The notes under the pieces were generated by a model. The model had not been told where the DNA came from and did not search any database. It worked only from the letters and a program-made list of their open reading frames with translations. Shown piece by piece: positions 4,949 through 22,759 of a stretch of 24,649 nucleotides of DNA; positions within the stretch are counted from its first letter, which is position 1; the number at the start of each line of letters is the position of its first letter. Position numbers and translations under genes: made by a program. This DNA is from a virus. The stretch spans positions 1 through 24,649 of IMG/VR virus record IMGVR_UViG_3300037963_005153, one strand, 5' to 3'.

Positions 4949-7900
4949 ATGTCGTTTAATCTCTTCGGACCAGCAGACAAATGTGATATTAGGGTTGGAT
5001 ATATTTCAACCACAAGAGGTTACGTTGATGGTGTCAACCGATATGAAGCTAATAAGTATGCAAAATTGAATCCAGGAACTCAATTTATTCTCAGAAGAAG
5101 AGATAAAATTCAGTTCATGAATATCAATGAAGTTAATAAATTAGAACCAAAGGATCTTCTTCCGGAAAATTCTGCTGGTGGCAACAGAGGATGTTCTGGT
5201 ATTACCGGACTTGATATTTACGATGATGATGGTGGAATAAGATCAGATGCTTTTGATGATGCAAATCCATATGTTAATTTTTCAGGTGGTAATGGAATAG
5301 GAGCAAGAGCTAATCCTATATTTGGATCTGATGGCAGTCTACTTGCTGTAGATTTGATTGATGGTGGGTGGGGGTATGCATATGCACCAGTCACAGAAGT
5401 AGTAGATGAATATGGTATTGGTGCTGGAGCAGTTGTCCGATCTATTATGGTTGGAGACCCTGCATATTCTAAATGTGCATTCGTTGAGACTGTTCAAACT
5501 TTTGAGAAAGAAGAAGATTTTGAGGAGTATGACTTAAGCACATGTGGTCCATCGGAAATAGTTTCTTTTGGTAAGAGATATAACGCAGATGGAGAAGAGG
5601 TTGGTGTGTGGGATCCAACCACATATGCAACTCTTAGAGGAAATCCTGTAGAGATTGAGCAAAGAAGATATCAAGATTTCTTAGAATCTTTAAGAGGTGG
5701 TACAAGAGTAAATCTTCAGGATAATACTATCCGTAATTGGTGGACAACTCAAAGAGAAAAACCATTACAAGTCACTGCTCTTAATAAAAAGTCTAGAATT
5801 ATTCATAAGGTAACTCATCCCGCATGGAGTGAGTTTATGAATAAGTATGCTGTCTCTCCAGTTCCACCATCAAATGTTCCTGGTAGTGACTTTGCTGGAA
5901 TAGAACATACATTAGAGTGGGAAGAGGACTTTCCATATGATGGTGATTATAATTTTAGATATTCTGCAGATAATGTTGCTGACATTTACTTAGATAATAT
6001 ACTGGTTGGTAGAACAACTAGATTTAAAGATTCTCCGGACAAGTTAAAGAAATTTGTTACTGCTGGAGTTCATAGAATTAGAGTTGACCTGGAGAATATC
6101 CCTATTCTCAAAACAATAAAAAAACAAAAAGATGAGAAAAAATATATTAACACTGAGTTTGAAGTTTATGGACAAGGAACTCAAAGACACCGTGCAGTAA
6201 AATTTAGTTTCACATCTGAGGGTGGAGCACACTCTTTTGTTTTAGATAATGTCCAGAGGAGTGGTAACTCATATAAGAAGAATATAAAAGTTCTTAGAAA
6301 TACAAATTATAAGGTTGTTGCTGTTGCAGATTCTGCTAAAATAGAACCACAAATTGGAGAAAGAGAATTTAAAATTCAGTATGGCAATAATGCTTCACAA
6401 ACAACAGGAAAAAGAATTGTTAATAAAGGAAGAAAGATAGAGTTTGATGATAATATTAATAATGGATTTGATCTTAATGCAAGTTTAAAAATTGTATCTA
6501 GTTCTCCTGGACTTTCAGCAAAGTTCTCTGGGGATGGTACAAAATTAATTGTAAAAGGTCAAAATAAGGGCGATGTTACCATTAGATTTGAGTGGGATGA
6601 TGACCCTAGAACTTCTGGACTTGCTGTGGGGTCAGTCACTATTGGAGACACAACATGGACCCAACGTGGAGAGAAAGGTGGTATTACAAAAACTGTAAAC
6701 ATCAATAAAATCTCAAACATTAAGTCAAATTCGGGAGTCGTAGAACAAGGGACGTTACAAAGTTTTGGAGTTAGCGATAAAGAACGTGGTAATAAACCAA
6801 GTAAAATTATTTTTGCTGATTATGTTGGATCAGCTAATGATAATGATGATATGCAGGTTAGAGTTAATAGAGGAATCTTCACTCCATCAAATAAAAAAAT
6901 TATAAAAGGTGTTGGTCCACAAGGAAATCAAAAAAGAGGAACTTTTGATTTAACATTTAGAGTAAATGTCAAATCAGAATCAGGAGGATCAACTTCTTCT
7001 AATTCTGGTTTTGAAATGGAGGAAATTTTTAATACCAAGAAATCAATTAATGACGCAGACAGAAAACTTTGGAGAATAAATCCTGAGGCAGGAAGAGATG
7101 CTGATTTCTTATCTCGTTTTGGTGTTCTTCCATTCAATCCTCGAACCAATAAAGCAACTACTGATGATTTTGATGGAACTCATATTATTAGATGGCAATA
7201 TGTAGACTTCCCTATCACTGGAAACTATAATTTTGAGATTATGGTTGATGATTCCGCAGAGATTTTTATTGGCAATCGTTCTGGTGGAGGTCAAAAAGGA
7301 ATTGGTAATGGACTTCGTGACATCAACAATGGTGGTGATGAAACAATCATTAGGAAGCAAGGATTTAGTAGTCCAGGTAAGGGAACTGGTAAGAGTTTTG
7401 AAACCAGATTTTTTGAAGCAGGAAAGTATAGAATTCGTGTAGAACTGAAGCAGATTAGGGGTAAGCCTCTTTCTGCAGGCAATCCTATGGCATTTGCTAT
7501 GAGGATAAAAACTACAGTCAAAGAAAAGAAAGTTGTATCTGCAAAGTCTTGGAACGAAAATCCAATGGGTGTTGCATTATCAATTGATTCTCCCCTCCCA
7601 CCAGCACCACAAGAACTTCCACCACAACAGGAAGGAAGATGTCCTCGTAATCCTTTCTGGACAACTAGATTCCCTGGATCTAAACAAAAATGGTTCCCTG
7701 TGACTCATCCTGCATGGAGTGCATTTACTAATCGCTATGCAATGTCACCCGTATTACCATTGAGCACACTAGATTCTGATGGTGGTGGGATAGTTTACAG
7801 AACCTCTTGGGTTATTGATGCACCATATGATGGTTTCTATGGAATGAAAGGAACAGTCGATAATGGAGGAAGAATTCTTGTCGATGATAAAGTAATCTTG

Positions 7901-9613
7901 GAGGGTGGACTTGGTTTTAATGGAAGAACTTTGAAGGGGTTTAAGACAGATTTTCCTGATACTGTAAAGTTTCCACTAGAAGAAGGAAAACATACAATCA
8001 CTGTTGAAGTTATCAATGAAGAAACTGATACCTTTAAGATGGTTAAGAAAAAGATTTTTGATACCAAAGATTGGATAGTTGCGTCAAAATCCGCAAAACC
8101 AGTGGATGTTGATTTTAAAATATCATCTGATGCTAAGTATGCTAATAGAATTATAATTAAAGAACTTAATATTGATGAGAGTAAACGATATGATGGATCT
8201 CAAATTAAAAAAAGTCTTTCAAGAAGCGTTCAACCTGGTAAAATTTATGAGGTTAAACTCTTTAGTGAACAAAGTAAAAGAGGAGTGAGATTGAGATCAA
8301 AAGGTTCTATATTAGAGATGGAGGATGCAAGTGATAATGATTACACTGATATAATATGTGGTGCATCTCAAGGGAGATTTTTTGATTTTGAAAATGGTAA
8401 AAATTCTGCTACATGTAAGTTTGCTATTGGTGCTAAATCTTCTCCTGGATTGTCAAGTGGGAGTGTTAAAAAGGGTGTAACTTATGCCGGACCAACTGAA
8501 CTGTCAAGTTATAGAAAGGGATTCTTATCTCCATTTTTCCAAGAAATAAACGAACCAACGGAGGAAATTCAAGGAAAGACTTGGGTTATGCGTTGGGAAA
8601 ACGTAGATTTTCCTGTTGATGGTAGATATAATATTAAGACTGAGGCAGATGATAAAGCTGAGATTTTTATTGACGGAGTAAAAATTCAAACGGCGCTCTT
8701 TAGAAGAAAAACATTTGCTGGTGACCCTAAAACTTATAGTGAATTTACCACTACAAAAGGAAAGAAAACGGTTGAGATAAGACTTAGTAACATTCGTATA
8801 CCCAACACAAGTTTCCAGCAGAATCCAACTGTTGTTGATATGAATATAACAACGGATCTCAATATATCTACTGGAAGAAGTAGACCATGGACGACTAATC
8901 CTATCGGAATTTCTGCCATACTAATTCCACCACCTTGTCCATTAAAAATTGTTGGAAAAGGTAAGGTTTGTCAAGTTGTTGTAGATGATCCAGGAAATGG
9001 ATTTCCTAAACCACCTGATAGTGGAACAGGAGATTCTACATATCCAGTTACTCTTGCATTAGAAGATGTTGAGGTTGTTGATACTGGTATCAATTATAAT
9101 TGTGGAGTAGATCAACTTGTGATTGAACCAAGTAATGGAGTTAAACTCACCTATGAGTGTGATACATTTGGTAGAATTACTAAGGTTAATGTTTTACCCG
9201 AAACACCAGGAACTTCGGCTGGACGTGGATTTACAAGACAACCAGAAATTAGAATGATCACTGATACTGGAGTTAATTTCCAGGCGGTTCCAAGATTCAC
9301 TGTAGTTAGAGATCCAGTTGATCCTGATATTTTACCAGAGCAAATCATACAGGTGACTGATTTGGTTGGACTGAAACAAACTGGATACATAAATGGTAGA
9401 CCATATTATGGACAGGTCTTCTACAAAGAAGGAGTTCGTTATGCAGGTGTATATGAAACACCTGGACAACTCATACAAGTATATGATACACTTAAGGAGA
9501 GTATTGATGCTGAGGTTACTACACCTCCGTCTGCAATCCTCAGACAGGGAACTGATATTTCTAGTAATGATCCAAGACTTAATATTCCTGGAACTACCGA
9601 TAGTTTATCTTAA
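4949..9613 (+). CDS. Large virion structural protein with four PA14-like modules
   Basis: A 1554-residue protein of unrecognised exact family. Four beta-sandwich modules resembling PA14 share an aromatic-DFP/APxDGxYN core followed by AxIF(I/L)D: near residues 328, 752, 956 and 1218. Modules 1 and 3 are each preceded by a THPAWSxFxN(K/R)YA(V/M)SPV block (H290, H920). Modules 2 and 4 are each followed by a WxxNPxGxxAxxI block (W868, W1314) and a Pro-rich stretch, so the protein looks like a duplicated two-module unit. PA14 domains often bind carbohydrate in other proteins; here that is inference. The N-terminal ~250 residues and the C-terminal ~240 are of a different type, the latter with Gly/Pro-rich repeats seen in cyanophage structural proteins. 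It lies between gp5 and spike genes, suggesting a baseplate or adhesin role. Confidence 0.65.
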   Translation: MSFNLFGPADKCDIRVGYISTTRGYVDGVNRYEANKYAKLNPGTQFILRRRDKIQFMNINEVNKLEPKDLLPENSAGGNRGCSGITGLDIYDDDGGIRSDAFDDANPYVNFSGGNGIGARANPIFGSDGSLLAVDLIDGGWGYAYAPVTEVVDEYGIGAGAVVRSIMVGDPAYSKCAFVETVQTFEKEEDFEEYDLSTCGPSEIVSFGKRYNADGEEVGVWDPTTYATLRGNPVEIEQRRYQDFLESLRGGTRVNLQDNTIRNWWTTQREKPLQVTALNKKSRIIHKVTHPAWSEFMNKYAVSPVPPSNVPGSDFAGIEHTLEWEEDFPYDGDYNFRYSADNVADIYLDNILVGRTTRFKDSPDKLKKFVTAGVHRIRVDLENIPILKTIKKQKDEKKYINTEFEVYGQGTQRHRAVKFSFTSEGGAHSFVLDNVQRSGNSYKKNIKVLRNTNYKVVAVADSAKIEPQIGEREFKIQYGNNASQTTGKRIVNKGRKIEFDDNINNGFDLNASLKIVSSSPGLSAKFSGDGTKLIVKGQNKGDVTIRFEWDDDPRTSGLAVGSVTIGDTTWTQRGEKGGITKTVNINKISNIKSNSGVVEQGTLQSFGVSDKERGNKPSKIIFADYVGSANDNDDMQVRVNRGIFTPSNKKIIKGVGPQGNQKRGTFDLTFRVNVKSESGGSTSSNSGFEMEEIFNTKKSINDADRKLWRINPEAGRDADFLSRFGVLPFNPRTNKATTDDFDGTHIIRWQYVDFPITGNYNFEIMVDDSAEIFIGNRSGGGQKGIGNGLRDINNGGDETIIRKQGFSSPGKGTGKSFETRFFEAGKYRIRVELKQIRGKPLSAGNPMAFAMRIKTTVKEKKVVSAKSWNENPMGVALSIDSPLPPAPQELPPQQEGRCPRNPFWTTRFPGSKQKWFPVTHPAWSAFTNRYAMSPVLPLSTLDSDGGGIVYRTSWVIDAPYDGFYGMKGTVDNGGRILVDDKVILEGGLGFNGRTLKGFKTDFPDTVKFPLEEGKHTITVEVINEETDTFKMVKKKIFDTKDWIVASKSAKPVDVDFKISSDAKYANRIIIKELNIDESKRYDGSQIKKSLSRSVQPGKIYEVKLFSEQSKRGVRLRSKGSILEMEDASDNDYTDIICGASQGRFFDFENGKNSATCKFAIGAKSSPGLSSGSVKKGVTYAGPTELSSYRKGFLSPFFQEINEPTEEIQGKTWVMRWENVDFPVDGRYNIKTEADDKAEIFIDGVKIQTALFRRKTFAGDPKTYSEFTTTKGKKTVEIRLSNIRIPNTSFQQNPTVVDMNITTDLNISTGRSRPWTTNPIGISAILIPPPCPLKIVGKGKVCQVVVDDPGNGFPKPPDSGTGDSTYPVTLALEDVEVVDTGINYNCGVDQLVIEPSNGVKLTYECDTFGRITKVNVLPETPGTSAGRGFTRQPEIRMITDTGVNFQAVPRFTVVRDPVDPDILPEQIIQVTDLVGLKQTGYINGRPYYGQVFYKEGVRYAGVYETPGQLIQVYDTLKESIDAEVTTPPSAILRQGTDISSNDPRLNIPGTTDSLS

Positions 9614-10337: not shown

Positions 10338-11099
10338 ATGGCATTTCACGTAGATGATTTAGTTATTGGTGGACAAATGAAAGATGGGTCAGGTATCTGC
10401 CCTGCCGCTGGTGAAGGTCCTCTAAAGATTAATGGATCTGGAATGCTTGAGGGTCCGGTTGTTACTGGGCAACCAACTCATTTTCCAACCCCTTATGCGA
10501 CACTCAATATTGGACCCCTTACGAACTCAGATTCTCCTCCCGCATTTGCACCAGGTGCATTACCACTTGGATTGAGTAATCCATACTCTGCTATGGTTTC
10601 TCCAAACTTAGGTGTAATGGGCAATCTTGATGTAAACTTTAGAATTCAGTCAGGTGGTCCGATTTTTGGTCTATCTGTTGCAGATTTTAGAGGTAATGTT
10701 TTAGCAGCAAAAAAAGATTTTGATATTCCACACCCAACTAAAGATGACTGGAGACTGCGACACGTTGCACCAGAGGCACCGACAGCAGATGTGTATGTTA
10801 GGGGAAGAGTAACAAATAAAAAAGAAATTCAACTACCAGAATACTGGAAAGGTTTGGTTGATTGGACTACAATTACAGTCAACTTAACACCGGTTGGATC
10901 TCATCAAGATGTTATCGTAAAAAGATTCGATGAGGAAAAAGTTTACCTTCAATCAAATGGAGGTCTACCAATTGATTGTTTCTATCATGTTTATGCTGAG
11001 AGGCAAGATTGCGAAAGAAACATAGCAGAATACGAAGGCACATCTCCTGAGGATTATCCAGGAGACAACACACAATATTTACAATCAGGAAAAATTTAA
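10338..11099 (+). CDS. Virion structural protein with FxIPHPxK module, possible PAAR-like N terminus
   Basis: A 253-residue protein. Residues ~128-222 form a module that recurs in cyanophage and other phage tail proteins: FDIPHPTK, DWRLRHVAPEAP, YVRGR, IQLPEYWKGLVD, ITVNLTPVGSHQDVIV. The same module occurs in the next gene. The N-terminal ~65 residues are Gly/Pro-rich and carry H4, C21 and H48 with a GPLKINGSGM-type strand; this faintly recalls PAAR proteins, which cap VgrG/gp5 spikes, and the position right after the spike-like gene fits. That PAAR idea is weak inference. The start is supported by the CAGGAG SD six bases upstream. Function is likely a minor tail or fibre component. Confidence 0.6.
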   Translation: MAFHVDDLVIGGQMKDGSGICPAAGEGPLKINGSGMLEGPVVTGQPTHFPTPYATLNIGPLTNSDSPPAFAPGALPLGLSNPYSAMVSPNLGVMGNLDVNFRIQSGGPIFGLSVADFRGNVLAAKKDFDIPHPTKDDWRLRHVAPEAPTADVYVRGRVTNKKEIQLPEYWKGLVDWTTITVNLTPVGSHQDVIVKRFDEEKVYLQSNGGLPIDCFYHVYAERQDCERNIAEYEGTSPEDYPGDNTQYLQSGKI

Positions 11100-11102
11100 A
11101 TT

Positions 11103-11750
11103 ATGGCAAACTCACCAGGACAACCCGAAAATTTTGAATTCCCAGGAGAATTTATCCCATCTCCCACTAGCCAGGACTGTAGTAAAAAAGCAGGTGGTTG
11201 GGGAATAGCAATGGAAGACTTTGAATATATTTGGTATGCAAACAAAGGTGAAGCTGATTATCCAGAAGATGCTTGCACTCCCTATTATCATAAGTCTGCA
11301 CAGATTGATAACCTTCAAGTAAATGCTACATGCGGAAAGGCATCTGTTACTAATTTTGTAGGAGCAACGGTTACTATTAATGGATTATGCTCCGCAGGGT
11401 CTTTCAGTGCAAACTCAAAAGCATTTAATATTCCTCACCCAATTAAAGAGGGAAAAAGATTATGGCACGGATGCTTAGAGGGTCCAGAGTATGGTGTATA
11501 TATTCGTGGACATTTAAAAGATACTAATGTGATTGAACTGCCAGATTACTGGTCAGGTCTTATTGACCCAGAAAGTATTACTGTTTCGCTTACACAAATT
11601 GGGTCCTCACAAGATTTAATTGTGGATAGTATTGACTGGGGTAAACAGGTTAAAATACGGTCGGGTAACGGAACCAATATTAATTGTTATTACATTATTA
11701 ATGCTATGCGTAAAGATATTCCTGCACTCGAAGTCGAGCAGGATGCTTGA
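11103..11750 (+). CDS. Virion structural protein with FxIPHPxK module, paralogue of preceding gene
   Basis: A 215-residue protein. Residues ~108-203 repeat the module of the upstream gene: FNIPHPIKEGKRLWHGCLEG, YIRGH, IELPDYWSGLIDPESITVSL, IGSSQDLIV. The N-terminal ~100 residues differ and contain several cysteines (C26, C58, C77, C96). The module is found in tail-fibre-type phage proteins. The gene starts three bases after the upstream stop and in the same frame, so the pair probably arose by tandem duplication with replacement of the N-terminal part. No strong SD is visible. The last codons and stop overlap the -35 box of a sigma-70 promoter at 11747. Confidence 0.6.
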   Translation: MANSPGQPENFEFPGEFIPSPTSQDCSKKAGGWGIAMEDFEYIWYANKGEADYPEDACTPYYHKSAQIDNLQVNATCGKASVTNFVGATVTINGLCSAGSFSANSKAFNIPHPIKEGKRLWHGCLEGPEYGVYIRGHLKDTNVIELPDYWSGLIDPESITVSLTQIGSSQDLIVDSIDWGKQVKIRSGNGTNINCYYIINAMRKDIPALEVEQDA

Positions 11751-12708: not shown

Positions 12709-13272
12709 ATGGCATTTCAATCAGTTTGGTATTTTACCGATTTACCTGAAAAAGTAGTAAATATTATTCAAGAAGACTTATCAGAGAATTTTGATGATAG
12801 AATGATGGATTCTAGAATTGAGGGTCCTGATTTTAACAAAGAAAAAAGAAATTCCAAAAATGCTTGGATTCCAACGTCCCACTGGATTTCTGGATTTATT
12901 TGGCATTATGTAATGAAAGCAAATAAAGAAAATTTTTTATATGACCTGACATCTATTGACGGAGAAGCGATTCAATACACTCAATATGAAAAGGGTCAGT
13001 TTTATACATGGCATAACGATGCTGGATTATCATGTATGCATAATGATAATGCAATAAGAAAACTGTCTTTCGTATTGCAATTATCTGACCCAGATGATTA
13101 TGAGGGTGGAAATCTACAACTTTTGGATGAGAGTGGAGCATCCTATATTGCACCTCGTCAAAGAGGAACTATGATTTTATTTGATTCCCGCACACAACAT
13201 AGAGTTTTAAAAATTACTAAAGGATGCCGTAAAAGTTTAGTTGGATGGACAATTGGTCCACGTTGGAAATAA
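12709..13272 (+). CDS. 2-oxoglutarate/Fe(II)-dependent oxygenase (PKHD/prolyl-hydroxylase type)
   Basis: A 187-residue soluble protein, a typical length for a minimal double-stranded beta-helix dioxygenase. The iron ligands are visible: H102 and D104 in WHNDAG and H164 in TQHRVLKIT, with R174 ten residues later to hold the 2-oxoglutarate carboxylate. Other family features are RKLSFVLQLSDPDDYEGGNL, RGTMILFD and SLVGWTIGP. Such enzymes hydroxylate protein, nucleic acid or small-molecule substrates with O2 and 2-oxoglutarate; they are common in marine cyanophages, with substrates unknown. The gene overlaps the next oxygenase by one base (TAATG), implying coupled translation. Confidence 0.88.
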   Translation: MAFQSVWYFTDLPEKVVNIIQEDLSENFDDRMMDSRIEGPDFNKEKRNSKNAWIPTSHWISGFIWHYVMKANKENFLYDLTSIDGEAIQYTQYEKGQFYTWHNDAGLSCMHNDNAIRKLSFVLQLSDPDDYEGGNLQLLDESGASYIAPRQRGTMILFDSRTQHRVLKITKGCRKSLVGWTIGPRWK

Positions 13273-13958
13273 TGGCAGAATTAATGACACCAGAGCAGAT
13301 AACTCTGCAAGAAATGCACAATACTGGTACAACTTGGACTCGTAATGATTTCATGGAAAAGCACGGATATGTGGTGATTAGAAATCTTTGGGATCCTGAG
13401 GAATTATATCATCCTGTCCCGATGCGAAGAGGGCAGTTTAACTATCATAGTAAAAATCTAGACGATTATGATTATGAACCATTAGAACAACAAGTAGAGG
13501 GGTCAGTAGCACGATATTGGCATCCACAATATCGTTCTATCCACTCTGGAATTCGTATGAAAGTCGAAAAAGAGTTAGGTCGCAAACTTTATAATACCTA
13601 TTATTATGATAGATATTACTTCCCTGGACAAAAATTAGAAAGACACGCTGATAGAGATGCATGTGAAATTTCAGTCACTGTGCATGTTGGAACTAATTTA
13701 GATGTCGATTGGCCTATCTGGATTAAAACACCAGATGAATATGCGGATAAAACTAAAAAAACAACAATCAGTATGGGTGATGACCACTCTGTTATTTTAA
13801 AACCAGGTGATGGAATGGTATATAAAGGATGTGAAAGACCGCATTGGAGAGAACCAATGCCAGGTGAAGGTATGCATACATACTATCATCAAATCTTTTT
13901 CCATTATGTTTTGCAAGACGGACGAAGAGCACACTATGCTTGGGATAGGTCAAAATAA
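13272..13958 (+). CDS. Second 2-oxoglutarate/Fe(II)-dependent oxygenase-like protein
   Basis: A 228-residue protein. Likely iron ligands are H125 and D127 in LERHADRDACEISV, and H191 in GCERPHWREP; the preceding GDGMVYKG strand and the C-terminal YYHQIFFHYVLQDG strand fit the double-stranded beta-helix fold. An N-terminal region (NDFMEKHGYVVIRNL) is typical of the entry helix of such oxygenases. It is not a close duplicate of its neighbour: motif spacing and N terminus differ. I took the ATG at 13272, which overlaps the upstream stop, over one 27 bases further upstream inside the first oxygenase. The substrate is unknown. The 2-oxoglutarate-binding Arg was not pinned down. Confidence 0.8.
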   Translation: MAELMTPEQITLQEMHNTGTTWTRNDFMEKHGYVVIRNLWDPEELYHPVPMRRGQFNYHSKNLDDYDYEPLEQQVEGSVARYWHPQYRSIHSGIRMKVEKELGRKLYNTYYYDRYYFPGQKLERHADRDACEISVTVHVGTNLDVDWPIWIKTPDEYADKTKKTTISMGDDHSVILKPGDGMVYKGCERPHWREPMPGEGMHTYYHQIFFHYVLQDGRRAHYAWDRSK

Positions 13959-14263: not shown

Positions 14264-17200
14264 ATGGGTCTTTCCAGATTAGATAATTTTCTTAAGTCTT
14301 CCAGAGGAACGATTCTTTATGTGAATCCAAATGATTTGGATGCGACTGACAGCATAGAAAATCAGGGCAATTCGCTGACACGCCCCTTTAAAACTATTCA
14401 GCGAGCTCTCATTGAAGCATCAAGATTTTCATATCAAAGAGGGTTGAATAATGATAGATTTGGAAAAACCACAATCTTACTATATCCCGGTGATCATATT
14501 GTAGATAATAGACCGGGATATATTCCAGATGGAGTAAATCTCTATAGGACAAGAAGTGGTGCAATAACCAATGACTTACCTCCATATGATCTCACTTCTA
14601 ACCTAAGTTTAGAATCTCCAGAAAACGAACTATTTAAACTTAACAGTATCCACGGTGGAGTAATTGTTCCCCGTGGTACTTCTATCGTAGGTTTAGACCT
14701 TCGTAAAACTAAAGTTAGACCTAAGTATGTTCCTGACCCAGAGAACGATAATATTGAAAGATCTGCTCTGTTTAGAATTACTGGTGCCTGTTACTTCTGG
14801 CAGTTCACCATGTTTGATGCAGATCCAAATGGAGTCTGTTATAAGGACTATACTAAGAACCAATTTGTCCCCAACTTCTCTCATCATAAACTTACTTGTT
14901 TTGAGTATGCAGACGGCACGAATAATGTAAGTATTAGTGATACTTTCCAGACGTACTCTACAAATCGTACTGACCTGGATATGTATTATGAAAAGGTCAG
15001 CCTTGTTTATGGTCAGTCCTCTGGTCGTGCAATTTCACCAGATTATCCAAGTTCTGGACTTGACATTCAAGCAAAAATCGATGAACACCGTATTGTTGGT
15101 TCAACTGGCGCATCTGTTGGAATTACAAGTATTAAAGCAGGAGATGGCACCACATCCTCAACCACAATTACAGTTACTACCGCAACTGCTGTTCCTGGTT
15201 TAGACGTTGATACTCCTTTCCGTATTTCAAAGGTCACCGCCACTGGGTATAGTGGACAATTTGTTGTATCTGAAAAAGTTGATGATACCAATATTAAATA
15301 TCAAGTTCAAAATGACCCAGTAAATCCACTCCCATCAATTACAGGAGCAACACTACAATTACAATCTGATACCGTTACATCTGCATCACCATATATCTTT
15401 AACCTTTCCTTGAGATCAGTTTTTGGTATGTGTGGCATGCATGCTGATGGATCCAAAGCAACTGGATTCAAGTCAATGGTTGTGGCTCAATTTACTGGTA
15501 TCGGACTTCAGAAAGACGATAATGCATTTGTAAAGTATAATGCCACGACTGGAAACTATGAGGATAATACCGTAGCTGGTAATGAAACTCTAAGCACAGA
15601 TTCAAGAGCAGTTTATAAACCATCTTATAGAAACTTTCATATCAAGTGCTCCAATAACTCTGTTATTCAGGCAGTTTCTATCTTCGCTATTGGATATGCT
15701 GAGCACTTTGTATCAGAGAGTGGTGGAGACCAATCGATCACCAACTCTAACTCAAACTTTGGTGCCAAAGCTCTAATTGCAGATGGATTTAGAGAGCAAG
15801 CATTCACTCAAGATGATGTTGGTTACTTTACTCATGCTATTCCACCAAAAGAAATACCTTTAACTGAGACTGCGATTGAATTTGATGCGATTGATGTTCA
15901 TAAAACGGGTAGGGTTCCAAACGTAGGTATAGGATCCACTGGTAATCTTTATCTGTATGACAGAACTAACAAAGATGCCCCTCCAGAAAATGTTATTGAG
16001 GGATTTAGGGTTGGCGCAAAAACTAATGACACTCTCAAAGTTCTTGTATCTGCTGCTGGATCTGTAACTGAGTATGGAGCACGTATTGTAATGCCTAATT
16101 CTCAGTCAAGTGCTGAGAAGACATTCCTTGTAAACAGAAGTGCAACCGGTATCAATAGTATTGGTGTATTCAGTGAGGGTGGTGCGACTAATGTCATCAC
16201 TCTGACTGCAAATCACACCTTCTTAACTGGTGAAACCGTTCGTGTTATTAGTGATACTGGACAACTCCCTGATGGACTTGAGTCAAATCAAGTTTATCAT
16301 GCGATTGTAACTGGACTTGATGCAACTAATTTAAAACTTGCAAAGACGTTTAATGATGCTGTTAATGGAAATGCAATTTCAATTAATGAAAAGGGTGGTA
16401 TTTTAAAAGTTAGCAGTAGAGTCACTGATAAAAATGCAGGTGATGTTGGTCACCCAGTTCAATACGATGATACCAATGGTCAGTGGTATATTAAAGTATC
16501 CACAGCAGCAACTGATAATACCATTTTCCCAGTTGTAGTTGGTGTTGGATCAACTGGTTTTGGAGTATCAACTCCGAGAACCTTCATTACTAGAAGAAAT
16601 GATAACAGAAATTCTACTGATACTCTGTATCGAATGAGATATGTTATTCCTGCTTCTTCTGGAGGAACAGTAGCAAGACCTCCTGTTGAAGGATTTATCA
16701 TTCAGGAATCTAATACGTCCATAGGATCATCCACTGCCGAAGTTCAAACATACTTTGGATCTGGCGAAATTTCAAATATCAATCAACAAAGAAACTTTAG
16801 ATTTATTGCAGATGCCACCTTCTCGGATGGTGCAAAGACTGCAAGTTTTGTCACTGAACTTCCTCACAATCTAACTGTTGGATCAAAAGTTCAAATCAAT
16901 AATGTGACCAGTGCAAATAATACCACTGGTGCTGGCAATTCTGGATTTAACCATACAACCATCGTTACAGGTATTTCCAGTTCTAAGATGTTTACCGTTG
17001 GTCTTGGAACCGATCCTGGTGCATTTAGTAATGATACTTCCACAAGAAATATCTCACTTCCATTCTTTAGGAAGAAAGAGTATGACGATACTCTGTATGT
17101 CTATAGAGTTGAAGAGGCACAAAAGTATGTAAGTGGTGATCAAGATGGTGTTTACTATCTCACCGTTGTTGGTGCAAACGAAAAACCAACTGTTTCTCCG

Positions 17201-20194
17201 TTTACCGATGAAAAATACTCTCAACCGGTCAAGTCACTCTTCCCACAAACTCAAAGAGATGAACCTGAATCCGACCCAATGGAGTCCCGCAGTTTTGCAA
17301 GGTCTTCCCTGATTGGCGATGTTGTAATTAATGACCCAAGAAAGAGTCTCACAAAAGAAGCAGCAAACAGATACTTTAAGGCAAATGACATTGGTATTGG
17401 TATTACCAATATTACTTCTTTTAGCGCAGACTCACACGTTGTCGAAACTACACTTGATCATGGTCTGAATAGAATTGTTACTTTGGGTATTACCAGCGCA
17501 GGTGCAGGATATGGATCTGCTAACACCACTCTTTATAATGCAACATTAGCAGGAACTGGACACACTACAACTGATGTAGGTAAGCATGGAACCGTTAAGA
17601 TTACCACAGGTTCTAGTGGTGAAATTACTGGAGTCACCGTCATGGATGGTGGTAGTGCATATGGCATTGGTAACTCTATGTTCGTTACGGGTGTTTCTAC
17701 TTACACTGGATTTAGTTCTGCTATTGTCACCGTCACTGGCATTTACAATAATGTTGGCGACACTCTAAGAATTAGTGGAGTTAATTCTGAGGGATTTGCT
17801 GACTACAATCAACTTTATAGAATTGCTGATGTTGTTGTTGGCGCTGCTACTACACTTTTAGTTGCTCCTGCTGAATCTGTCGGTGGATTTACAACTACTG
17901 GTATTGGTGCAACTGCTGCAACTGGATCATTTGCACAATTAACTGGTGAATCTGTATCAGTTGATACTCTCGTATATAATAATAATGTTGGAATTGCAAC
18001 CTTAACCACTGATGGTCAAAAACATGTATTCTCTGCTGGTCAAAGGATAAAAGTTACTGGAGCAACGAATACCAGATATAACGGATCATTTGTTGTATCT
18101 AAAGTTAATTCATTAACCCAATTTGAAGTAAAGGTTGGAGTTGCAACTAATATACTTACTGAGTCTTCCTCATCAATATTAGCATTCCATGAGGGTCTGT
18201 CTGCAAATGATGGAGTTATTACTGCAGATAATGAAAATCTAAACGGTAGGATGATTCCAGCATATGCAGGAATTACCACCACTATATCTTCAGCAATAAT
18301 CAATGCTACTAGTGATGAAATTAACATAACTCAAATCAATGACGTTGATATTAAGATTGGCGATTTCCTCTTAGTTGACGATGAAATTGTTAGAGTTAAG
18401 AAAACTGTAACCGGAAATCCAATTAATGTATTCCGTGGTGTTCTTGGAACAAGACCAACAATACATGCTATTAATTCTGTAATTAGAAGAATTAACGCAA
18501 ATCCAATTGAACTTAGAAGACACTCTATCAACAGAGCATCTGGACATACTTTTGAATATGTTGGATATGGTCCTGGCAACTATTCAACTGCTCTCCCCGA
18601 TAGACAAGATCGTTCTATCTCAGCAGATGAAGAACTTCTTGCACAGTCACTTAAGCGTCAGGGTGGAATTAACTTCTACACTGGTATGAATGACAGGGGT
18701 ATTTCATACTCTGGTAATAAGAAACTTAGCACGATTACCGGCCGTGAGGAAATTTTTGATACTCCATTCCAGACAATCGAAGGTGAGGACATCAGTGTTC
18801 TCCCAAGTCTGAACGTTGTTACTCCTGTAGAGGGTAGATTTGCTCGCTCAATCAACGTTGAGGGTGGTGCGGATAATAAGGTAGCATCCTCTTTCAACGG
18901 TCCCGTTATTGTTAATAATAAATTAACAGTAAATGCGGCTCTTGAATCTAACAACCTATTCCTTCAGGGTGATGCAACTGTTTCTAGAAAGTACACAGTT
19001 GGAATTGCAACTCCAAGTCTGGCAGGAAATCCAGGAGACTTAGTTTATAATGCTAACCCAAGTGAGGGTGATTATGTTGGTTGGATCTATAGTGTTCAAA
19101 ATGATTGGCGTCGTTTTGGTGCAACTAGTTTGTTCACCAATCAAAATGTTATGGTATTTGACCAGGTTGGGGTTGGAACAACCACGCCAGGTGCTGCCAC
19201 ATTTAAGGTAGGTGCTGGAACCACTCAACTTGTAGTTGATGGTGATGGTGTCGGTATTGGATCAACCGCAAATGGGGTCAAACTTCGCGTAGTCGGTGAC
19301 ACCAGAATTAGTGGAAATGTTGTTGCAGGAGTTGTCACTGGATCGTTCTTCCACGGTGATGGTTCTAATCTCACAGATGTTAACGTATCTGCTGCTGGTT
19401 GGACACAGGATTCTGGTGTTCTTTATAACACTAACCTTGGATCTGTTGGTATTGGAACGTCTGTATCTAGTATTAATCTAACAGTTGGAGATAGGCATGA
19501 AAATGTTGGTGCAGGTTTAAGTGTAAGTTTCCTTGTCCATGGAAACGCAATATTCTCAGGTCTTGTTACTTGTAGAGATTTCATCCCAGTCGGTGTTATT
19601 ACTGCAACATCATTTGACTTTGATAGTGGCACTGCCGACAATGTGAGCCCTAGCACTTCCGGTAGAATTAGAGCGGGTATTGCTACTCTAGGATATCTTA
19701 ATGTTGGAGTAGGAGGAACAATTATCACTACTACAGATACTGCCGGTGTTGGTCGAGTTGGTATTGGTTCCTCGGTTCCATCGGCTTTATTAGATATTGA
19801 CGGAAGGGCATTCTTCAAGACATACTCTGAAAGAGTGGGTGCTGTTACTCTTGCTGCAGAAGTTGGTACGGTTGACCTTTCAGAAGCACAGACATTTATT
19901 TGCACTGCAACTTCTAATATTACTCACTTTACCCTGAAAAATGTTCCTTCTGGTTCAACATCATTTACAATTAAAGTTGAACAAGATTCTACTGGAAGTC
20001 GAAGTATAGATATAGATGACTTCCGAAATGTTGGCGGAACAGCAATTCCAGTCTTCTGGCCAGGTGGAGTTGTTCCAACTCCAACAACCACAGCAAGTAG
20101 ATCTGATATGTACTCATTTAAGATCTTTAATGGTGATACTCCAACATCATCCGGTCTCTACGGAGTCGTAGGCGGTCAAAACTTCCAGAACTGA
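14264..20194 (+). CDS. Very large tail/baseplate-fibre structural protein
   Basis: A 1976-residue protein. The N terminus (SRLDNFLKSSRGTILYVNPNDLD, then NSLTRPFKTIQRALIEASRF) resembles the opening of right-handed beta-helix (pectate-lyase-like) phage proteins. The middle is a long series of beta-rich segments with Gly/Thr-Ser repeats (for example LGITSAGAGYGSAN near residue 1070). From about residue 1590 a fibre-type tail follows: GNPGDLVYNANPSEGDYVGW, then GIGSTANGVKLRVVGDTRIS and FFHGDGSNLTDVN modules, which also resemble the gene at 22807. Proteins with this start are, to my recollection, present in most T4-like cyanophages as virion structural proteins. The role is likely peripheral baseplate or fibre. 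No SD is evident. Two stops (TGA TAA) end it, six bases before the next gene. Confidence 0.7.
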   Translation: MGLSRLDNFLKSSRGTILYVNPNDLDATDSIENQGNSLTRPFKTIQRALIEASRFSYQRGLNNDRFGKTTILLYPGDHIVDNRPGYIPDGVNLYRTRSGAITNDLPPYDLTSNLSLESPENELFKLNSIHGGVIVPRGTSIVGLDLRKTKVRPKYVPDPENDNIERSALFRITGACYFWQFTMFDADPNGVCYKDYTKNQFVPNFSHHKLTCFEYADGTNNVSISDTFQTYSTNRTDLDMYYEKVSLVYGQSSGRAISPDYPSSGLDIQAKIDEHRIVGSTGASVGITSIKAGDGTTSSTTITVTTATAVPGLDVDTPFRISKVTATGYSGQFVVSEKVDDTNIKYQVQNDPVNPLPSITGATLQLQSDTVTSASPYIFNLSLRSVFGMCGMHADGSKATGFKSMVVAQFTGIGLQKDDNAFVKYNATTGNYEDNTVAGNETLSTDSRAVYKPSYRNFHIKCSNNSVIQAVSIFAIGYAEHFVSESGGDQSITNSNSNFGAKALIADGFREQAFTQDDVGYFTHAIPPKEIPLTETAIEFDAIDVHKTGRVPNVGIGSTGNLYLYDRTNKDAPPENVIEGFRVGAKTNDTLKVLVSAAGSVTEYGARIVMPNSQSSAEKTFLVNRSATGINSIGVFSEGGATNVITLTANHTFLTGETVRVISDTGQLPDGLESNQVYHAIVTGLDATNLKLAKTFNDAVNGNAISINEKGGILKVSSRVTDKNAGDVGHPVQYDDTNGQWYIKVSTAATDNTIFPVVVGVGSTGFGVSTPRTFITRRNDNRNSTDTLYRMRYVIPASSGGTVARPPVEGFIIQESNTSIGSSTAEVQTYFGSGEISNINQQRNFRFIADATFSDGAKTASFVTELPHNLTVGSKVQINNVTSANNTTGAGNSGFNHTTIVTGISSSKMFTVGLGTDPGAFSNDTSTRNISLPFFRKKEYDDTLYVYRVEEAQKYVSGDQDGVYYLTVVGANEKPTVSPFTDEKYSQPVKSLFPQTQRDEPESDPMESRSFARSSLIGDVVINDPRKSLTKEAANRYFKANDIGIGITNITSFSADSHVVETTLDHGLNRIVTLGITSAGAGYGSANTTLYNATLAGTGHTTTDVGKHGTVKITTGSSGEITGVTVMDGGSAYGIGNSMFVTGVSTYTGFSSAIVTVTGIYNNVGDTLRISGVNSEGFADYNQLYRIADVVVGAATTLLVAPAESVGGFTTTGIGATAATGSFAQLTGESVSVDTLVYNNNVGIATLTTDGQKHVFSAGQRIKVTGATNTRYNGSFVVSKVNSLTQFEVKVGVATNILTESSSSILAFHEGLSANDGVITADNENLNGRMIPAYAGITTTISSAIINATSDEINITQINDVDIKIGDFLLVDDEIVRVKKTVTGNPINVFRGVLGTRPTIHAINSVIRRINANPIELRRHSINRASGHTFEYVGYGPGNYSTALPDRQDRSISADEELLAQSLKRQGGINFYTGMNDRGISYSGNKKLSTITGREEIFDTPFQTIEGEDISVLPSLNVVTPVEGRFARSINVEGGADNKVASSFNGPVIVNNKLTVNAALESNNLFLQGDATVSRKYTVGIATPSLAGNPGDLVYNANPSEGDYVGWIYSVQNDWRRFGATSLFTNQNVMVFDQVGVGTTTPGAATFKVGAGTTQLVVDGDGVGIGSTANGVKLRVVGDTRISGNVVAGVVTGSFFHGDGSNLTDVNVSAAGWTQDSGVLYNTNLGSVGIGTSVSSINLTVGDRHENVGAGLSVSFLVHGNAIFSGLVTCRDFIPVGVITATSFDFDSGTADNVSPSTSGRIRAGIATLGYLNVGVGGTIITTTDTAGVGRVGIGSSVPSALLDIDGRAFFKTYSERVGAVTLAAEVGTVDLSEAQTFICTATSNITHFTLKNVPSGSTSFTIKVEQDSTGSRSIDIDDFRNVGGTAIPVFWPGGVVPTPTTTASRSDMYSFKIFNGDTPTSSGLYGVVGGQNFQN

Positions 20195-20200
20195 TAAAAA

Positions 20201-22759
20201 ATGGAAAATAATTTTCTTAGAAGGATTCCAACAGACATTGATCTTAATGGACCAGTTCTGGCATATACAACACAACCAAGTGATGCCACTAAAAATAGAG
20301 GAGAAAGCGTAACTTTTACAGTTGTAGCGGAAGCAACATTTCCAGGTAATACTGGAGCTGATGATAGTGGCACTATTGCTTTCCAATGGTATGAAGGTGA
20401 AGGACAAGCATTAACTAATGGTGGTAATATTAGTGGTGCAACGTCAGCATCACTCTCTATTAGTGACTTAGATACTCCTGCCGATAACGGGAGAAATTTT
20501 TATTGTGAAATATCATATACTGCAGGGGATGAGTATGATTCTACCGATAAAGGAACAGGAACTGCTATTAATGAACCACTGAAATCTTCTGTAGTAACTC
20601 TCAGCATGAATCCTTTGCTTGAGATTGTTTCGCAACCATCAAATGCTACGGTTTATACAAACGTTGCTGCAACACATACTATTAGTGCTAAACTCACTGA
20701 TAATTCTGGTGAAGTAACATATCAATGGTATGTTGGTGTTGAAAATGCTACCCCTACTCTAGTAGAAAATAAAACTTACAGAACTCAAAATATTGAACGT
20801 GAAACGATTACTGTAATTGATGAGGATTTTGTCACTGATACAAATTATTATTCTACTGGTAAAAGTTTTGGAACTGGTAATAGTAGTGTAAACATCCCAC
20901 CCACAGGATATAACGTAACTTTTACGGTTGCTGGTGCTGGTGGCGGTAACGGTGGATCTGATGCTAATGGTGGTGGCGGTCCAGGTGGCGGTGGTAGAAT
21001 TGGTAATTTTTCAATACCAAATTCACGAGCACGAGGTAGACAATTTAACTTCTGGATTGGATCACAAGGTGGCGGCGGTGGACGCGGAAACTTCCCCGCA
21101 TATGGTGGTCCCGGCGGTAGTTCAATAGCACCTGGTGGCCGCGGCGGTGGTGCCGGTCCTCGTGGTTGGTCTGGTGGTGGCGGCGGAGGCGGTGGTGCCT
21201 CTGGTGTTTTACGTGATAATGGTCTTTTGCTTGCCGTCTGTGGCGGTGGAGGAGGCGGTGGCGGCGGCTCTTTGAACAGAGGAGGTTCTGGCGGACAAGT
21301 TGCTCGTGGACTTAGTGGTAGTCCATTTACATCATCAATTCCTACCTCTTCAGGTAATAGGGGTGAGGATCAGCACGACGACGGTGGTGGCGGTGGTGGT
21401 GCCGGTGGTGGAGTTTCTCCCGCAAGAAGTGGCGGTAGACACGGACATGATAACAGTAATGGTGGCGGTGGAGGAGAAGGTGGTCGTTCTGGATATAGAT
21501 CTGATTATATAAGTTTCACTGGATCTCCTGGTAATAATAGAGGTCAAGGATATGGCAGTATAAATTATCAGTATACAACCTCAACCACAAGACCAGTTAA
21601 AACCCCAAGAGAAGTAATAAACGAAATAATAACATATCAAAATACGGTAATTAGTGGTCAAGGAACACCTACATTATCAATAAAATCAGATAATGCAGAG
21701 TTTAATAATACCAGAAGCGTATATTGTGTAGTTTCTAATTCCACAGCGTCAAACTCTCCACTAACAAGCGATACGGTAACTTCGTCAGTTACTGATCCAA
21801 CACAGCAAGATAGAATTATAATTGAAACAATATCTGCTGACGGAACAGTAAATATTCAAGAAGTAAATCTTTTGAATGGAGAGGAAGAGATTAAATCAGG
21901 ATCCTCAACTGGAACTGGTGAAGGTGGATACCTTTATAGCATATATGCACCAGATAAAGACATTGAGATAGAAATGGATCTTTTTGGTGGCAAAGGTAGA
22001 GATTATCGTAATGGTAAAGTAGGTGGTGAAGGTGGATATTCTAGAATTAAATTTACTTTGGACAGAAATATCGAATATGTTATTGCAGGATTAAATAGTT
22101 CTATCAATACTCCATTCATTTATAGGGGAGCAAACTTACTTGCTGTAGTTGGTGGAGGAGGTGATGCTGGACTTAATGGTAACGGTGGTAGAGGTGGTGG
22201 AATTGGATTATCTGGTGAACAGGGAAGAAATATTGGTGGTTTACCAGGTGATAGAGTTGCTGAAGGCACTCTGGGTGCTAACGGAATTTGGAGTAGATTA
22301 ATAGACCCTCCCACAGGTGTTTATGCTGGTGATTCTCAAGTTGATATTACTAGCACATCGGGTGGACGAACAATAAAATGTACAAAGGGAGATTATTGGG
22401 CAACACAAGGGAAGACCGCATGTGAATCTGTTAATGCATTGGATCAATCACTAAAATTTAGAATGGCTAATGGAGATGAAGTATCTGCTACTGCTGCTTT
22501 AGGTTTTAGAGGATATAAAGATGGTTATGCAATTCAACATACTGGTGGTTTAGGTAGAATGAATGGTAGAACAGACTCTGAGATAGGTCCACCCAATCAT
22601 GCAAATGGCGGAAATGGAGCAACCGGAGGTTCGGGTGGAATTGGATATTCTAGTGCTGGCGGTGGATCAGGATATTCAAATGGATCTGTCGAAGTTGTTG
22701 ACACTCAACTTGGAGGAAGCAACTCCTCTAAAGCTACAGTCTTCATAAGACGTGTTTGA
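20201..22759 (+). CDS. Ig-like/glycine-rich putative adhesin
   Basis: An 852-residue protein. Residues ~20-137 are an Ig-like domain (FQWYEGEG ... ISGATSASLSISDLD ... NFYCEIS). Residues ~142-187 begin a second one (VTYQWYVGVEN), and its remaining strands appear only at ~484-532 (ISGQGTPTLSIKSD, VYCVVSN). Between them, ~235-455, lies a Gly-rich domain with runs of up to nine Gly. A second Gly-rich domain fills ~538-852; both share a LLAV(C/V)GGGG segment. Such polyglycine domains form receptor-binding tips in T-even-like gp38 adhesins; that function here is inference. GGT/GGC runs raise local GC. It lies six bases after the 1976-residue gene, so the two are probably co-transcribed. I propose a host-recognition tip. 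Confidence 0.7.
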   Translation: MENNFLRRIPTDIDLNGPVLAYTTQPSDATKNRGESVTFTVVAEATFPGNTGADDSGTIAFQWYEGEGQALTNGGNISGATSASLSISDLDTPADNGRNFYCEISYTAGDEYDSTDKGTGTAINEPLKSSVVTLSMNPLLEIVSQPSNATVYTNVAATHTISAKLTDNSGEVTYQWYVGVENATPTLVENKTYRTQNIERETITVIDEDFVTDTNYYSTGKSFGTGNSSVNIPPTGYNVTFTVAGAGGGNGGSDANGGGGPGGGGRIGNFSIPNSRARGRQFNFWIGSQGGGGGRGNFPAYGGPGGSSIAPGGRGGGAGPRGWSGGGGGGGGASGVLRDNGLLLAVCGGGGGGGGGSLNRGGSGGQVARGLSGSPFTSSIPTSSGNRGEDQHDDGGGGGGAGGGVSPARSGGRHGHDNSNGGGGGEGGRSGYRSDYISFTGSPGNNRGQGYGSINYQYTTSTTRPVKTPREVINEIITYQNTVISGQGTPTLSIKSDNAEFNNTRSVYCVVSNSTASNSPLTSDTVTSSVTDPTQQDRIIIETISADGTVNIQEVNLLNGEEEIKSGSSTGTGEGGYLYSIYAPDKDIEIEMDLFGGKGRDYRNGKVGGEGGYSRIKFTLDRNIEYVIAGLNSSINTPFIYRGANLLAVVGGGGDAGLNGNGGRGGGIGLSGEQGRNIGGLPGDRVAEGTLGANGIWSRLIDPPTGVYAGDSQVDITSTSGGRTIKCTKGDYWATQGKTACESVNALDQSLKFRMANGDEVSATAALGFRGYKDGYAIQHTGGLGRMNGRTDSEIGPPNHANGGNGATGGSGGIGYSSAGGGSGYSNGSVEVVDTQLGGSNSSKATVFIRRV

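Follow-up and report, generated by a model that had tools for sequence, protein, structure and literature searches.

Does the Gly-rich domain of a cyanophage tail protein sit inside an immunoglobulin (Ig)-like domain, and what would such an arrangement be for? The question is raised by an 852-amino acid protein encoded in the window analysed here, a stretch of 24,649 nucleotides comprising positions 1 to 24,649 of IMG/VR record IMGVR_UViG_3300037963_005153, from a virus of marine cyanobacteria. The nesting had been proposed in an initial annotation. It is near certain that the Gly-rich module (the cargo) is nested in one domain, the second Ig-like domain (Ig2), and we consider it likely that Ig2 is a fixed socket for an exchangeable module in an outer-tail adhesin of a T4-like cyanophage. 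The protein matches phrog_24848 over its full length (residues 1-851 on profile positions 1-797 of 799, E 6.6e-220). The open reading frame (ORF) and its parts are listed below; pLDDT stands for predicted local distance difference test.

20201..22759, + strand: ORF of the 852-amino acid protein, in the order Ig1, Ig2 (N-terminal half), nested cargo, Ig2 (C-terminal half), conserved C-terminal Gly-rich domain
20252..20608, + strand: Ig-like domain 1 (Ig1), unbroken, residues 18-136 (Ig2 profile match at 18-89; model strands)
20612..20761, + strand: first half of Ig2, strands A, A', B and C, residues 138-187 (profile positions 3-50; model strands)
20762..21649, + strand: cargo (residues 188-483) nested at the C'-D/E turn of Ig2 (gap between the profile halves; missing in 39 of 88 homologues)
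20771..20869, + strand: very long strand at the start of the cargo, residues 191-223, proposed first stalk strand (AlphaFold model)
20870..21550, + strand: Gly-rich head, residues 224-450, with Gly at 88 of its 227 positions (pLDDT mostly 86-96; LTK/ALK matches)
21551..21655, + strand: very long strand at the end of the cargo, residues 451-485, proposed second stalk strand (AlphaFold model)
21650..21796, + strand: second half of Ig2, strands E, F and G, residues 484-532 (profile positions 57-107; model strands)
21812..22756, + strand: residues 538-852, the conserved Gly-rich domain at the C-terminus, which includes a Cys-containing module (C-half scaffold profile)

One Ig-like domain in two pieces

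A hidden Markov model (HMM) of Ig2 was built from 11 homologues with contiguous Ig2, the window protein being left out. It matched the window protein in two non-overlapping, complementary pieces: profile positions 3-50 aligned with residues 138-184 (32.0 bits) and positions 57-107 with residues 478-531 (18.5 bits). The Ig2 halves, residues 138-187 and 484-532, are separated by 296 residues. Ig1 was matched by the same HMM in a single piece (residues 18-89); the annotation had placed the pieces of the first Ig domain close together.

In a partner scan the N-terminal half of Ig2 was joined to each 53-residue stretch after residue 187, and 612 such placements were scored. The top scores (57-60 bits) were all obtained with stretches starting at residues 474-483, the true partner being the best of the 612. 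When the true partner was shuffled 1000 times, the mean score was 35.4 bits and the maximum 46.4 bits; none of the shuffled versions reached the true partner. Together with the complementary profile pieces this bears out the claim that a Gly-rich insert splits Ig2, and the insert position held as well (residues 188-483, nucleotides 20762-21649). Ig2 had been thought to start around residue 172 and to resume around residue 484. The two-part layout was correct, the N-terminal half being matched from residue 138.

The full-length window protein was modelled with AlphaFold2 from 26 alignment rows (mean pLDDT 84.6, predicted template modelling score (pTM) 0.45). Strands of the model lie at residues 140-144, 149-152, 156-165 and 173-180 ahead of the insert and at 491-496, 504-512 and 526-531 behind it. 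Ig2 strands A-C (140-180) and E-G (491-531) thus flank the insert, as the nested arrangement had led one to expect. Each end of the insert is a single, very long strand (191-223 and 451-485, roughly 30 residues each). The simplest reading of the model is that these strands pair as a two-stranded ribbon, a stalk that would bear the Gly-rich head off the Ig domain. The description of the insert as a Gly-rich domain was right in composition (30% Gly vs 4% in each Ig2 half) and incomplete, since the insert is also bounded by the two long strands and has a fold like that of the ALK/LTK Gly-rich domain.

The window model resembles the Ig modules of PTPdelta, Robo and Dscam in Foldseek (E about 1e-6 to 4e-5), alignments which alone are no proof of closure across the insert. 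Natural empty-site homologues served as the insert-free comparison for the fold. In one of them (L088; L numbers denote loci) the Pfam Ig_3 match spans the joint unbroken, covering residues 140-205, within which the joint lies at 186-188 (E 0.00037, 21.4 bits, below the 30-bit cut-off).

Probable exchange of cargo at the joint

The IMG/VR search with alignment yielded 80 loci, and a second search from empty-site proteins yielded 49, partly repeats. Few relatives came from cultured-phage collections, the diversity being that of IMG/VR. Occupancy of the joint was measured with two profiles, one for the half on each side of it. The first set contained 69 distinct proteins with both halves, 23 with 0-16 amino acids at the joint and 46 with 247-751; the second set added 16 empty and three filled joints. 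In total, 88 distinct homologues possess both halves; the joint is empty (0-16 amino acids) in 39 and filled (247-751 amino acids) in 49. The position of the joint is constant to within a few residues, with the motif YQWxxxGxxLSD (strands C and C') before it and VSGSxTxxLxI (strand E) after it. Contiguous Ig2 is found in P-TIM68, AG-345-E15 and many uncultured relatives, and inserts at the joint in S-SM2 (where the protein is SSM2_031), Bellamy, AG-345-O18 and uncultured relatives. The initial annotation had envisaged both uninterrupted versions of Ig2 and other inserts at the same joint, and both exist. Members of phrog_24848 include both the window protein and its relatives with an empty site, and the C-half scaffold profile matches every full-length homologue.

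The loci also agree in their surroundings. The gene directly upstream in the window is the following:

14264..20194, + strand: fiber gene encoding a 1976-amino acid protein, whose homologue in S-SM2 is annotated 'fiber'

In all 68 testable loci (68/68) the adjacent upstream ORF matches the C-terminal 500 amino acids of the window fiber, with gaps of -4 to 23 nucleotides. With the same fiber homologue directly upstream in each case, the empty and filled versions are positional counterparts.

Cargo of more than one kind occupies the joint. Clustering gave at least three Gly-rich families (window and S-SM2; Bellamy and L009; AG-345-O18), two of which resemble ALK/LTK Gly-rich domains. PF12810, the ALK/LTK Gly-rich domain, was detected in the cargo of Bellamy (55.2 bits), L009 (45.1 bits) and L061 (47 bits; cut-off 24.5), whereas the window cargo had no Pfam match to it. 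The window-family profile A2 matched LTK and ALK chains of the PDB at profile positions 224-429 (E 2e-7 to 7e-5); positions 224-403 matched 7nx0, an LTK/ALK Gly-rich domain, with E 2e-7. The top Foldseek matches of the window model were also ALK/LTK structures, the first being ALK (7nx3, E 7.2e-7). Other homologues carry tandem Laminin_G_3 (concanavalin A-like) domains: L046 (92.7 bits), L061 (105.7 bits) and L074, and, by alignment, L043 and L082. The single 751-amino acid insert of L021 combines two LamG domains with a Gly-rich domain. A second level of nesting was seen in L086 (residues ~460-560) and L074 (~310-415), where a non-Gly domain of about 100 amino acids lies within the nested Gly-rich domain.

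Near-sister scaffolds differ in occupancy: filled L027 and empty L032 are 75% identical, L058 and L060 73%, and L029 and L045 68%. A tree of the scaffold columns requires at least nine occupancy changes, of which well-supported branches force eight, as well as 19 changes of cargo class. Empty joints of 11-16 residues (L032, L045, L060, L023) fall in clades with filled joints and may be stumps left by cargo loss. Bellamy-type cargo also occurs at two further turns, one in Ig1 (seen in L035) and the other separating the first strands of Ig2 (L061, L074), and one cargo family was found at three joints (A, B and C). Ig2 of L061 has two interruptions, one a Gly-rich domain and the other a pair of LamG domains. 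The cargo of L074 at joint B (the second place) and that of L086 at joint C (the main joint) are 39% identical over 392 amino acids (E 9e-55). Shuffled cargo gave zero matches below 1e-6, which rules out chance similarity among Gly-rich cargo. L002 and L053, a very close pair, have scaffolds that are 95-97% identical and cargo that is 80% identical (p 1e-11). Exchange of cargo at the Ig2 joint is thus very likely; the idea of an exchangeable tip on a kept scaffold finds its support in the phylogeny and in near-sister scaffolds with different cargo.

Some relatives have inserts elsewhere. Five (L056, L069, L073, L081, L084) contain about 160-215 amino acids at a fourth place, in the C-terminal Gly-rich domain (scaffold profile position ~488). 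L023 (5362-7512) and L025 (5395-7521) have an insert of about 150 amino acids in the Ig1 B-C loop, with a vWA/MIDAS-like motif (DxSGS) seen by eye. This insert matches part of phrog_29022, and the Ig2 joint of these two proteins holds only a stump-like loop of 16 amino acids.

In SynMITS9220M01 (L005 5992-7842, 7842-8183, 8185-9426), L071, L135 and L139 two genes encode the protein, and the break between them falls within the Gly-rich cargo. At its end the first gene has a poly-Pro tract, mostly also poly-Arg, and an unrelated domain; the second encodes the remainder of the cargo, followed by the C-terminal half of Ig2 and the C-terminal domain. The two genes match phrog_24848 at profile positions 6-380 and 390-784, respectively. 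Rfam revealed no intron in L005 or L071, giving two microRNA matches far under their gathering scores, and joining of the SynMITS9220M01 genes by a known self-splicing intron is unsupported there. Hint (intein-like) look-alikes were noticed by eye in L139 (4789-7053, after the poly-Pro tract) and L094 (6001-9501, near the C-terminus). A broader, tentative proposal, which we hold to be somewhat less probable than its opposite, is that such Ig sockets are general in cyanophages: whole binding modules of unrelated folds would be exchanged at fixed turns, sometimes two at once, and one lineage would split the socket between two genes, the products of which would need to form one Ig domain out of two chains.

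Proposed role of the nested module

In the mechanism that we propose the protein would be an outer tail adhesin, fiber or baseplate-associated, with the second Ig-like domain as its fixed socket. A separately folding head of ALK/LTK type (TNF-like plus Gly-rich) would be inserted after strand C', between the two ~30-residue strands, and the Ig strands flanking it would still close as one sandwich. Because of this closure, loss, gain or exchange of the module would leave the scaffold and the conserved C-terminal domain undisturbed. The cargo would contact the host surface, and its exchange would shift the host range. Judged by the relatives of the cargo and by the gene neighbourhood, it is plausible that the cargo is the receptor-binding part. 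In gp38 of S16 and PP01, Gly-rich heads of this type bear the receptor loops, and in the Pam3 fiber such a head has been proposed as the end that binds the receptor. The cargo that can take its place resembles lectins, and between L002 and L053, although not in other pairs, the cargo has diverged far more than the scaffold.

Other explanations differ in what they make of the halves or of the cargo. Residues 138-223 could be an Ig domain completed by strands of the insert, with residues 451-532 being part of the cargo or of a different domain; in the Bellamy/L009 family the insert indeed begins with an E-strand-like sequence (TPTLTIND), and the Pfam Ig_3 match of L009 extends to residue 224. 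Two separate domains are nevertheless highly improbable in view of the complementary profile pieces, the ranking of the true partner among the 612, the empty homologues with a single contiguous Ig and the near-sister scaffolds that differ by the insert. Trimerisation is frequent among TNF-like folds, and the nested module might be a structural spacer or trimerisation element rather than a receptor binder. The related TNF-like/Gly-rich Pam3 fiber is a trimer (PMC9608196), and many homologues lack cargo at the Ig2 joint, so the cargo is dispensable for assembly. Free exchange or absence is not expected of such an element, however, nor is replacement by unrelated folds including the lectin-like LamG, and the receptor loops on the Gly-rich tips of S16 and PP01 gp38 also speak for binding; we regard a spacer as unlikely. 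About equally doubtful is a decorative role, in which the cargo would bind non-receptor targets such as environmental glycans or other virion proteins. LamG and Ig domains often serve as decoration in virions, and the PHROGs partly matched by the protein or its split relative fall in the head and packaging category, with one Hoc-like family among them, but the gene belongs to a fiber/baseplate block and follows the fiber gene immediately at every testable locus.

Several points weigh against the exchangeable socket adhesin that we favour. The window protein has zero Pfam matches at E 0.1. Closure of Ig2 and pairing of the stalk are deduced from strand assignments, model confidence and profile evidence, with a pTM of only 0.45. 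The model of the LamG-carrying L046 has an overall pLDDT of 56 and is poor in the cargo, most of both its Ig2 halves being at pLDDT 78-95. The scaffold tree has no outgroup polarising gains and losses, and scaffold recombination could inflate the counts. Cargo evolves faster than scaffold in some close pairs and not in others. Receptor binding and presence in the virion are predictions, that of binding drawn only from context and homology.

The window as a whole is a structural-gene block of a T4-like cyanophage, with PHROGs matches to the tail lysozyme hub, baseplate wedge and tail proteins; its closest cultured-phage match is Synechococcus phage S-SM2. The adjoining ORFs at 10338-11099 and 11103-11750 each match phrog_17490 and phrog_28536, the same two families, and are therefore probably a tandem duplication. 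A 2OG-Fe(II) oxygenase-like ORF (12709-13272) is followed by one with the PHROGs label 'ferrochelatase' (13245-13958), with structural genes on both sides. The 1554-amino acid ORF at 4949-9613 has PA14 domain matches (2.4e-12), a fold commonly linked to glycan binding.

Comparison with known tail proteins

Host recognition by marine cyanophages is largely unknown, and adhesins are mostly 'hypothetical proteins'. The phrog_24848 record gives no function and does not describe the nested architecture. No description of Ig-nested cargo in cyanophages was found in the literature, most subscription journals lying outside the search. Other named phages with phrog_2155 had no separate second gene of the same architecture, only the 852-amino acid-type gene or its neighbour.

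The gp38 adhesins of S16, T2 and PP01 are polyglycine II sandwich proteins whose loops set the host range (PMC6851490, PMC12892980). They share with the window protein a lattice of Gly-rich motifs formed from loops of a beta scaffold and, by prediction for the window protein, a position at the end of the fiber of a T4-like phage, but theirs is a beta-helix scaffold capping gp37, in which loops and not whole domains vary. gp38 was missing from the top 50 Foldseek matches of the window model, the family profile had no gp38 sequence match in the PDB, and the model contains no gp38-type N-terminal helical bundle. The fold that marks S16-type gp38 (helical attachment domain, beta-helix and polyglycine II sandwich) is not that of the window protein, and this identity was rejected.

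The Pam3 tail fiber gp24 combines a TNF-like with a Gly-rich domain, and its Gly-rich end is the proposed receptor-binding part (PMC9608196). In gp24 and in the TG domain of ALK/LTK the Gly-rich domain grows from the strands of a beta-sandwich, as in the cargo (PMC9608196). In contrast to both, the entire module of the window protein is nested in an Ig domain and may be absent.

The nearest published principle is that of the evolved Dit proteins of siphophages, in which carbohydrate-binding modules are inserted in loops of the galectin domain and bind hosts (PMC7291167). In both systems modules of demonstrated (evolved Dit) or predicted binding function occupy loops of a tail scaffold that is itself conserved, and some relatives have them while others do not (PMC7291167). 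In evolved Dit the galectin domain serves as the scaffold, within the distal tail protein of siphophages of Gram-positive bacteria, whereas the window protein has a cyanomyovirus Ig scaffold with several joints, repeated exchange and cargo of the Gly-rich or LamG type. It has no Dit match in Pfam or PHROGs, its scaffold being Ig1-Ig2 plus the Gly-rich domain; it works alike without being a member. The fixed joint provides sharp boundaries for a candidate receptor-binding module, natural module-free controls and a handle for finding such modules in uncultured phages. The evolved-Dit principle is thereby extended to Ig domains and T4-like phages, on a different scaffold and with a much wider exchange of cargo.
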